In this document: positions 19 to 23,483 of the stretch, piece after piece
Position numbering within the stretch: the stretch's first letter is position 1
Layout: the number at the start of each line of letters is the position of its first letter
Assembly (NCBI GenBank): GCA_938083005.1
Contig: CALKCU010000070.1
Span: forward strand, 1 to 33,728
Length of the DNA stretch: 33,728 bases
Direction of reading: 5' to 3'
DNA from: an uncultured Sulfolobales archaeon
Lineage (GTDB): Archaea; Thermoproteota; Thermoprotei_A; Sulfolobales; NBVN01
Position numbers and translations under genes: made by a program
Notes under the pieces: model-generated
What the model saw: only the letters and a program-made list of their open reading frames with translations
The model's database searches: none
What the model was told of the DNA's origin: nothing

Positions 19-114
19 TGGGCCCGCGGGGACTCGAACCCCGGACCTCCGCCTCTCGCAGGGCTTCCTGGGGCTCGTAAGGGCGGCGTCCTGACCGGGC
101 TAGACGACGGGCCC
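19..114 (-). tRNA. tRNA-Val (anticodon UAC), intron-containing (intron about 55..75, 21 nt, at about 37/38)
   Basis: Minus strand GGGCCCG-T-C-GTCT...GGAC-G-CCGCC-CUUACG-[AGCCCCAGGAAGCCCTGCGAG]-A-GGCGG-AGGTC-CGGGG TTCGAGT CCCCG-CGGGCCC-A. All four stems pair once 21 nt are removed from the anticodon loop. The exact splice point can slide by 1-2 nt. Confidence 0.9.
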
Positions 115-18258: not shown

Positions 18259-18786
18259 CTGGCGGGCTCCAAAGTCATAGTTTTCGACGTAGAGAAGGCT
18301 AGGTGCCTCTTTACTCACGGGTTCTACGGCAAGCCCGTCGGGGTGAGGAAACCCAAGGACACGAACATCGAGGTGCCCCTGGAGCTCTCCCTGCTGGAGG
18401 CCGTGTTCCTCTTCAGGAGGGGGATCCTGAAGGTCCGCTCGGGAGACAGAGAGCTCGGCGAGGAGGAGCTGCTCGGGATAGTCAATAGAGTGTTCAGCAA
18501 CTTCGAGGAGCTCTACTTGGTCTACGAGGACATGAGGTCTCAGGGGTTCGTCGTGAGGTCGGCACTCAAGTACGGAGCGGACTTCGCCGTCTACAGGACT
18601 AGACCGGGCCTCGAGCACGCACCGTTTCTAGTGAAGCTAGTCTCCAGAGGCCAGACTCTCGACCCGGGTGATATAATCGGCTGGGGGAGGATATCCCACA
18701 GCGTCCGGAAGACCCTGCTCCTGGCTATACCCGATGAGAGGAGGAGAGAGGTAAACTACGTAGTGCTGAAGTGGTTTAAGCCGTAA
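18259..18786 (+). CDS. endA: tRNA-splicing endonuclease EndA (start codon unresolved)
   Basis: YGKPVGVRKPKD, LSLLEAVFLFRRG, VYEDMRSQGFVVRSALKYGADFAVYRTRPGLEHAPFLV, ISHSVRKTLLLAIP (catalytic Y/H/K). The ORF track starts at GTG 18343, inside the conserved N-terminus. Confidence 0.9.
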   Translation: MAGSKVIVFDVEKARCLFTHGFYGKPVGVRKPKDTNIEVPLELSLLEAVFLFRRGILKVRSGDRELGEEELLGIVNRVFSNFEELYLVYEDMRSQGFVVRSALKYGADFAVYRTRPGLEHAPFLVKLVSRGQTLDPGDIIGWGRISHSVRKTLLLAIPDERRREVNYVVLKWFKP

Positions 18787-19832: not shown

Positions 19833-20352
19833 CAACCTCAAGGACCTGCTGAGGTTCGTCGAGGGCTATCTGGGAGAGGATGGCGTGAAGGTGTTCCGGG
19901 CCCTCCTCGATAGTGACAAGGAGCTTAGCTACAACGACATCATAGCCAAGACGGACCTGGACGAGCAGACCGTGAGGAGGGTCCTCTACGAGCTCAACGA
20001 CCTAGGCATGGTGATCTACAAGAGGGTCCAGTCGCCCGAGGACGGCAGGTTCATCTACTACTGGCTCGTGAACTCCTACGGGATAAACCAGGCGCTCCTG
20101 AACAGGAAGAGAATAACTCTGGAGAGGCTCAAAGCGAGGCTGAGCCACGAGATGGAAGCGGTGTTCTTCCTCTGCTTAAACGACGGCATCAGACTCTCGT
20201 TCGACGAGGCGCTGGAGCTGGACTTCAGGTGCCCCAAGTGCTCCTCGCTCTTGGTCCAGGAGGACAGGAACCCCTATATAGAGCCCTTGAGGAGACTCGT
20301 CGAGAAGCTGAGCAAAGAGGTGGAGGATGAGAGGAGGTCCCTATCTGATTGA
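19825..20352 (+). CDS. tfe: transcription initiation factor TFE (TFIIE alpha)
   Basis: N-terminal winged helix [24 protein letters not shown]...FIYYW followed by a C-terminal zinc-ribbon-like [10 protein letters not shown]. Overlaps trm56 by 8 nt. Confidence 0.9.
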
Positions 20353-21304
20353 CCTGTTCTCGGGCGCTGGTGGGTTCTCGCGGGGCTTCAGGGACTCGGG
20401 CTTCAGGGTGCTCCTGGCCATAGATAACGACAGATCGGCGGCCAAGACTTTCAACGCCAACTTCCCTGACACCATAGTACTCAACGAAGACATAAGAGAA
20501 GTGTCCTGCGATGACGTTCTCTACCTAGTCGGTAGAAAGAGTATCGACGTGGTCATAGGGTCCCCGCCCTGCGAGCCCTTCACGGCAGCCAACCCGCGAA
20601 GGCTCCGAGAGCCCCTGGACAGGCTCTACTCGGACCCCGTGGGATCCCTCGTCCTGGAGTACGTCAGGATCCTCGAGTGCGTGAAGCCTAGAGTCTTCGT
20701 TCTAGAGAACGTGCCGGGCATAATGGAGGGTGAGCTGAAACAGGCCATAAGAGCGGAGCTCGCCAAGGCTGGGTACAGGACTGTCTTCTTCAACGTCTTG
20801 AGGGCTGAGGAGTTCGGAAACCCGTCGAGGAGGACCCGGGTCTTCATCTCTAACGTAAGGATAGACCCGCCAAGAGCGAACTCGAGGATGACCGTGTGGG
20901 ACGCGATAGGAGACCTGCCGAGCCCGTCCCAAGACCCTGCTATACCAAACCACGACCCACCCCCCTCGGTGAGCGTCAAGAAGCTCAGGAGGATCGCGAA
21001 GCTCAGGTTTGGAGCGGCATTGGTGAAGTACAGAGGCTACGGAGGAAAGCTCTACCCGAACTTGGTAAAGCTCGACCCACATAGGGTGGCTCCAACAGTC
21101 CTGGGCTCGTCGAGGTTCATACACCCCTACGAACCGAGGCTACTCACGGTCAGGGAGCAGGCGAGGCTCATGAGCTATCCCGATGACCATATCTTCTTGG
21201 GGGGGAAGGACGAGCAGTACAACCAGGTCGGCGAGTCCGTCCCGCCAGCACTCTCGAGCGCTATAGCTAGGTACCTGCTGGGGCTCCTGGTAGAGACACC
21301 TTGA
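20327..21304 (+). CDS. C5-cytosine methyltransferase (Dcm-family, no adjacent restriction gene)
   Basis: [13 protein letters not shown] (motif I), GSPPCEPFT (motif IV), VLENVPGI (VI), NPSRRTRVF (VIII), Q.GESVPPALSSAIA (X). Confidence 0.93.
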   Translation: MRGGPYLIDLFSGAGGFSRGFRDSGFRVLLAIDNDRSAAKTFNANFPDTIVLNEDIREVSCDDVLYLVGRKSIDVVIGSPPCEPFTAANPRRLREPLDRLYSDPVGSLVLEYVRILECVKPRVFVLENVPGIMEGELKQAIRAELAKAGYRTVFFNVLRAEEFGNPSRRTRVFISNVRIDPPRANSRMTVWDAIGDLPSPSQDPAIPNHDPPPSVSVKKLRRIAKLRFGAALVKYRGYGGKLYPNLVKLDPHRVAPTVLGSSRFIHPYEPRLLTVREQARLMSYPDDHIFLGGKDEQYNQVGESVPPALSSAIARYLLGLLVETP

Positions 21305-21778: not shown

Positions 21779-21792
21779 CAAAGCTTATAAGC
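21779..21792 (+). promoter_or_regulatory. TATA box for tRNA-like locus
   Basis: caaagcttataagc, about 27 nt upstream of a predicted TSS at about 21813. Confidence 0.6.
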
Positions 21793-21812
21793 AGACTAGC
21801 CCCCGCTAGCAA

Positions 21813-21874
21813 AGGGGCGGTGGCCGAGCGGGAGAACCCCCGTGACCGGGGTTCGAATCCCCGCCCGGCTACCA
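21813..21874 (+). tRNA. candidate split-tRNA 3' half (leader about 21813-21835; exon about 21836-21874, amino-acid identity unknown)
   Basis: A38-CCCCC-GTGAC-CGGGG TTCGAAT CCCCG-CCCGGCT-A-CCA forms a perfect 3' half. No 5' acceptor strand AGCCGGG/GGCCGGG or complementary anticodon strand precedes it. Confidence 0.55.

Positions 21875-23393: not shown

Positions 23394-23483
<90 letters not shown>

Follow-up and report, generated by a model that had tools for sequence, protein, structure and literature searches.

A 33,728 nt contig (CALKCU010000070.1) from an uncultured archaeon of the Sulfolobales, referred to here in its full length as the window, contains part of a tRNA gene at positions 21814-21874 (plus strand, 61 nt). 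We conclude that this is very probably the 3' half of a split (trans-spliced) tRNA-Gln, which serves both the UUG and CUG isoacceptors. The halves, their complementarity, a bulge-helix-bulge (BHB) motif, the missing continuous gene, conservation, covariation and the processing enzymes are all apparent at the level of sequence. The window belongs to a metagenome assembly of 1.33 Mb (70 contigs, 83% complete), labelled G000; G, C and L numbers are our labels for genomes, contigs and loci. The parts of the 3' half are listed below. Unless stated otherwise, a slash within a sequence marks a splice site or exon junction.

21784-21791, plus strand: CTTATAAG, the TATA box that belongs to the 3'-half transcription unit and lies 53 nt 5' of the exon.
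21814-21836, plus strand: 5' leader GGGGCGGTGGCCGAGCGGGAGAA of the tRNA-Gln 3' half, predicted to be spliced off and kept in all same-genus genomes.
21814-21828, plus strand: trans-annealing segment GGGGCGGTGGCCGAG, with predicted 15-bp pairing to both 5'-half trailers (duplex energies, shuffled sequences and covariation).
21831-21834, plus strand: GGAG, which forms the 3' side of the BHB central helix (4 bp); its partner is anticodon-loop bases 32-35 (CUYU).
21835-21837, plus strand: 3' bulge AA/C38, with the predicted splice site at 21836/21837; the 5' halves carry a matching GG/A.
21837-21874, plus strand: tRNA-Gln 3' exon, positions 38-73 and encoded CCA, common to Gln(UUG) and Gln(CUG).

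Neither ARAGORN nor Rfam, at its gathering score, reported a tRNA at 21814-21874, though ordinary tRNAs of the window were found. A relaxed Rfam search gave just 15.5 bits. Hence, the feature is not a complete tRNA gene. The acceptor end reads CCCGGCT-A-CCA, so that position 72 is U. An A1-U72 pair marks archaeal tRNA-Gln and, together with the GUGAC-type variable region of the 3' part, presumably identifies the molecule as such. The CTTATAAG-type TATA motif also occurs before the same half in congeners, at a similar distance, and precedes continuous tRNA genes of the window genome. A first-pass annotation of this DNA had described the TATA box, the leader and the tRNA sequence to CCA, and had remarked that the 3' part has no local partner. 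These elements are present as quoted, and nothing in the noted stretch completes the tRNA. Three details of that description were wrong. The exon had been placed one base too early, at the A preceding C38. In continuous relatives the boundary reads ...TGG/CCCCCGTGACC, and the base 5' of CCCCC differs between genomes (A, T, G or C), behaving like an intron or leader base. Thus, the exon starts at C38 (21837). The leader of the 3' half ends at the point where the introns of continuous relatives end. The 3' strand of the anticodon stem (39-43) reads CCCCG instead of CCCCC, and in the BHB the central strand is GGAG instead of GGGA.

The first-pass annotation had interpreted the feature as one half of a split tRNA. 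It predicted a 5' half in which AGCCGGG and a D-arm would be accompanied by a G-rich anticodon strand, with a trailer of about GCUCGGCCACCGCCCC. We searched the window genome for 5' halves using the pattern AGCCGGGTNGTNNAG. There were two exact matches, both of which are tRNA-Gln 5' halves ending at base 37.

G000:C20:2511-2548, plus strand: Gln(CUG) 5' half AGCCGGGTCGTCTAGCGGCCAAGGATGCGGGGCTCTGG, followed by trailer ACCTCGGCCGCCGCCCC.
G000:C40:12459-12496, minus strand: Gln(UUG) 5' half ...GGGGCTTTGG, followed by trailer ACCTCGGCCACCGCCCC.

The presence of two matching, unlinked 5' halves in the same genome supports the split tRNA interpretation. The 5' halves differ at base 34, and the pyrimidines predicted for positions 34-35 are present as UU and CU. 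Pairing between the leader and a 5'-half trailer had also been anticipated. Accordingly, the complement of GGGGCGGTGGCCGAG, which is CTCGGCCACCGCCCC, is found exactly within the UUG trailer. The 15-bp duplex with the UUG trailer is fully Watson-Crick and that with the CUG trailer contains one G-U pair. Since both trailers duplex with the leader, a single 3' half serves both isoacceptors, which goes beyond the earlier proposal. TATA-like boxes, which are predicted promoters, lie upstream of all three halves. There is only one full-length match to the 3' half in the window genome. A permuted tRNA is argued against; the 5' halves are on other contigs, and none follows the 3' half within the window.

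Both 5' halves are interior to their contigs, with kilobases of protein-coding DNA on either side. The flanks on C20 are MoaC and S-adenosylmethionine (SAM)-synthetase-like open reading frames (ORFs), and those on C40 are FEN1-like and zinc-finger ORFs (all but MoaC named by eye). The halves could be real and yet belong to one precursor in the cell, if interrupted by one very long intron or by assembly breaks. We regard this as very unlikely. Some relatives do have halves 145-711 nt apart on the same strand, and in G071 both halves face contig ends. Conversely, each half of the window genome has the flanks described above. Moreover, in complete, single-contig genomes the halves are ~46-907 kb (G031) or ~267 kb (G029) apart, and the halves of G108 are on opposite strands. 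Finally, one 3' half used with two 5' halves cannot be the product of one intron. We therefore favour a trans-spliced tRNA-Gln; because the 5' halves lie elsewhere in the genome, the pieces must be transcribed separately and joined. As a separate observation, the moaC frame on C20 (L297, 980-1510, minus strand) spans the antisense of the entire Gln(CUG) 5' half. The predicted C-terminal tail of MoaC (~30 residues past the family match) is encoded opposite this half.

When joined at 37/38 the halves yield 76-nt RNAs, which ARAGORN identifies as tRNA-Gln(ctg) and tRNA-Gln(ttg). The predicted junction reads ...CUYUGG/CCCCCGUGACC. The CUG product is identical to the continuous tRNA-Gln(CUG) of G071 (L251) and the UUG product is identical to the continuous tRNA-Gln(UUG) of G029 (L162). 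The annealed halves form a full cloverleaf and a canonical BHB, with standard pairing at 41/41 listed pairs for both isoacceptors. In the BHB, 3-nt bulges (GG/A and AA/C38) surround a 4-bp helix of C32-U33-Y34-U35 with GGAG. Beyond this helix are one pair, a bulged C and the 15-bp stem. All of the split and intron-containing tRNA-Gln examined have 4/4 pairs in the central helix. Opposite base 34, intron or leader position -5 is G in 38/38 CUG genes, A (14) or G (9) in UUG genes, and G in all 12 of the shared 3' halves. A G at this position can face both C34 and U34, as would be needed for sharing.

The trailer-leader duplexes of the window genome have energies of -39.3 and -38.7 kcal/mol, compared with means of ~-26 to -27 for shuffled sequences. 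Across 33 pairs from 20 genomes, the mean for cognate duplexes is -37.7 kcal/mol, against -24.7 kcal/mol for non-cognate lineages (Mann-Whitney p ~4e-19, with within-genus pairs not independent). The trailer or leader of the same lineage ranked first of 12 in 29/33 pairs.

We next consider whether tRNA-Gln is truly missing as a continuous gene. In the window genome 40 isoacceptors are continuous, as determined by reading tRNA matches by hand and with ARAGORN. No continuous gene was found in the assembly for Gln(UUG), Gln(CUG), Arg(GCG, CCG, CCU) or Leu(UAG). The possibility that the Arg and Leu tRNAs are also split was discarded; all four are continuous in the congener G004, which is 97% complete. 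G004 has some tRNAs truncated at contig ends; the isoacceptors with no continuous gene there were Gln (both) and Gly(CCC) alone. Because G004 has all of the missing isoacceptors except Gln, the most reasonable view of the window genome is that Arg and Leu are absent owing to gaps in the assembly and that Gln is truly lacking. The missing isoacceptor called for by the first-pass annotation is thus tRNA-Gln, with both anticodons, in the window genome and in this congener.

The 61-nt unit, including its leader, has 95-100% identity in six same-genus genomes (one match covers 6-61 only). All 6 congeners searched have exactly two 5' halves and one matching 3' half, and no continuous tRNA-Gln was found in any of them. 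Compensatory stem changes occur within the genus, from C-G to U-A (i12) and from A-U to G-C (i10). The same converging gene is recognisable 3' of the 3' half in G000, G004 and G006. Conservation in the genus, and two exact 5' halves in the same genome, indicate that the 3' half is not due to chance. Two further observations concern related loci. First, the CUG and UUG 5' halves of G004:C2 (L146, L164) have an identical upstream stretch of just under 40 nt, which suggests that a 5' half was recently duplicated, or gene-converted, together with its promoter. Second, a 789 bp contig assigned to a different genus (L117, G019:C23) is identical to the split 3'-half region of G001. This is probably a contaminant, since G019 has both tRNA-Gln genes continuous.

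These data also bear on two other explanations. The first-pass annotation had offered, as an alternative, that the element at 21814-21874 is a tRNA pseudogene, or else a class II tRNA (Leu/Ser/Cys-like) that has degenerated and lost its anticodon arm, TGGCCGAGCGG being a relic D-arm. The leader does resemble the D-arm of tRNA-Cys/Ser in the window genome (GGTGGCCGAGCGG in L039). However, it is also the exact complement of a 5'-half trailer, and covaries with trailers. Furthermore, the acceptor strand is fully complementary to the separate 5' halves. The exon does not vary within the genus, and it supplies the rest of an essential tRNA that would otherwise be lacking. Given the 5' halves, the covariation and the conserved exon, we reject the pseudogene as extremely improbable. 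Alternatively, an integrated element could have duplicated the 3' end of a tRNA-Gln, leaving an attachment-site remnant. Orphan tRNA 3' ends of this sort occur in these archaea (a candidate is L221 of G004), but such an event would leave a complete tRNA-Gln nearby, and the remnant would carry no complementary leader, promoter or conserved BHB. The setting is instead intergenic, with a flanking gene common to congeners. No match to the 3'-half locus was present in the plasmid collection. We find this explanation scarcely credible. The candidate itself (L221, G004:C7:53304) is an orphan tRNA 3' end, from T-arm to CCA, located after a protein gene; it is perhaps an integration-site remnant.

Several points count against a trans-spliced tRNA-Gln. 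We infer the transcription and joining of the halves from their sequences. The assembly is 83% complete, and the part not assembled might contain a continuous tRNA-Gln; this is unlikely because none was found in the six congeners either. The unconstrained two-strand minimum free energies (-83.7 and -81.6) are below those of the cloverleaf with BHB (-71.4 and -69.1), because the model, at 37 °C, favours other pairings of the GC-rich arms. The annealing helix is retained in the unconstrained structure. There is one broken stem pair (A-C) in G001 (CTG), and there are small irregularities in G002 and in the CTG half of G004.

From the analysis as a whole, we infer that the tRNA-Gln halves are transcribed, annealed, cut, ligated and charged. 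Three small genes (one 3' half and two 5' halves), each with its own TATA box, would be transcribed. The GC-rich leader would then anneal with the trailer of either 5' half over ~15 bp. Annealing would unite the acceptor, anticodon and T stems and create the BHB at 37/38. EndA alpha/beta would cut both bulges (GG/A and AA/C) and RtcB would ligate the exons to produce 76-nt tRNA-Gln(UUG) and tRNA-Gln(CUG). Most likely, the system originated from an intron-bearing tRNA-Gln(CUG). An ancestral gene with an ordinary 37/38 intron, as found in sister genera, would have become two units, and a UUG 5' half would later have adopted the same 3' half.

The enzymes needed are encoded in the window genome. 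RtcB is encoded on C57, and the EndA genes, of which the first is 3 kb from the tRNA 3' half, are as follows.

18343-18786 of the window, plus strand: EndA catalytic (alpha) subunit (PF01974, 97.2 bits; NCBIfam TIGR00324 endA, 94.8 bits, above cut-off).
G000:C37:33891-34124, minus strand: second, beta-like EndA subunit.

The two unlike subunits suggest an EndA of the (alpha-beta)2 type, which goes with split tRNAs and non-canonical introns (PMC4033280).

We surveyed 159 genomes of the order; the examples are among the matches listed, and counts are lower bounds. Other genera of the family (e.g. Zestosphaera tikiterensis, L116) have continuous tRNA-Gln genes, mostly with a short 37/38 intron, and their CUG introns end GGGAGA-N. 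Besides the window's genus, clearly unlinked halves occur in family f4, for both isoacceptors (G037, which is Desulfurococcaceae archaeon AG1, and G041) or CUG only (G042 and G027). They also occur in family f8, for both isoacceptors (G031, G105, G106 and G107) or for UUG (G108), and, for CUG only, in G029. The leader and trailer sequences differ between split lineages and match within each genome. G107 has two separate 3' halves, one per 5' half. In an SRP54 tree of 30 genomes, those that are strictly split require at least 4 changes, and constraining split genomes to one clade was rejected (p-AU 9e-52, for this one gene). It appears that tRNA-Gln was broken up independently, at the same position, at least 4 times in this order of heat-loving archaea; re-fusion may also have caused loss of splits. 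Two candidates were not counted as split. The unlinked UUG halves of G071 both face contig ends, 286 and ~495 nt away, and in G063 the UUG gene is interrupted by an ordinary-length intron (coordinates overlap).

The close-lying halves mentioned above are those of G056, G064, G072, G076 and L131, in which a TATA-like box precedes the 3' exon by 58-63 nt. In G102 (L120) the halves are arranged likewise, 195 nt apart, with an AT-rich AGCTTAATAAAG stretch and no match for TATA in a motif scan. These layouts are possible intermediates. They match the adjacent halves of Aeropyrum tRNA-Asp (PMC3218864). The sister species G063 (L291) and G064 (L298) have related leader and trailer sequences for tRNA-Gln(CUG). 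The halves are 221 nt apart in G064 and 1942 nt apart in G063, where two opposite-strand protein genes lie between them. On balance, we favour the idea that splitting of tRNA-Gln has recurred across the order and still continues, making this gene a hot spot. Introns at 37/38 would grow and gain an internal promoter, and the halves would drift apart and could be pooled, with G at -5 enabling sharing by wobble. Sister species appear to catch single splitting steps in the act. Elsewhere in the survey, the Gln(CUG) 3' half of G029 (L201) has no obvious TATA box and is directly 3' of an intron-containing tRNA-Arg(CCU), with which it may be co-transcribed. Two further Desulfurococcales assemblies (L086 and L091) contain orphan 3' halves of tRNA-Gln, which have a TATA-like box and a leader of different sequence (AAGGCGGTGGCGGC).

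Other features of the window include a DNA (cytosine-5) methyltransferase gene close upstream of the tRNA half (20327-21304, plus strand; TIGR00675, 156.8 bits). A tRNA with a CAU anticodon and a 14-nt intron (23394-23482, minus strand) was left unassigned by ARAGORN. A tRNA-Val(UAC) with a ~21-nt intron (19-114, minus strand) was missed by ARAGORN in the window scan.

The papers searched count fewer than 20 rearranged tRNAs among archaea, from only a few species, and it is a matter of debate whether split tRNAs are ancient relics or arose recently. For the Desulfurococcales, only Asp and Lys splits have been reported (PMC3218864). No report of a split tRNA-Gln in this order was found in the literature searched, which covered subscription papers incompletely, nor is any mentioned in papers on tRNA loss in archaea and on tRNAscan-SE 2.0. 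Tools that find continuous tRNA genes will report such organisms as being without tRNA-Gln. One tRNA that is split throughout a genus, with comparative evidence, is unusually informative on how tRNA genes are split. Here, same-position splits adjoin lineages with an ordinary intron and apparent intermediates. Thus, the direction (from intron to split) and the mechanism are directly testable.

In the same archaeal branch, tRNA-Asp(GUC) is split in Aeropyrum pernix and Thermosphaera aggregans, and tRNA-Lys(CUU) is split in Staphylothermus (Chan et al., 2011; PMC3218864). Like the tRNA-Gln halves, these have complementary flanks and a BHB, and the Asp tRNA is split at 37/38. They have separate promoters, as is predicted for the tRNA-Gln halves. 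They also include an adjacent-halves form with the promoter inside the 'intron', suggested to be an intermediate for Aeropyrum tRNA-Asp (PMC3218864). In those systems there is one split tRNA per genome and the halves are close together. Conversely, the system described here has two isoacceptors, three unlinked genes, a shared 3' half and a different amino acid. A free-living crenarchaeon (2009, in PMC4390854) likewise shares halves between synonymous tRNAs. In that case the tRNAs are for Ala, Gly and Glu, and include three-piece tRNAs, whereas none in three pieces was seen here. The tRNA-Gln(UUG) of Nanoarchaeum equitans is also split, but at 32/33 rather than 37/38, and only UUG is listed (PMC3218864). 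The nearest precedent is provided by N. equitans tRNA-Glu(UUC)/(CUC), in which one 3' half is shared, at 37/38, by two 5' halves with different bases at position 34 (Randau et al., 2005; PMC3218864 table, PMC4390854 text). N. equitans is a symbiont from another phylum. Here, the amino acid is Gln, and the arrangement extends to a whole genus of the Thermoproteota, with comparative covariation.
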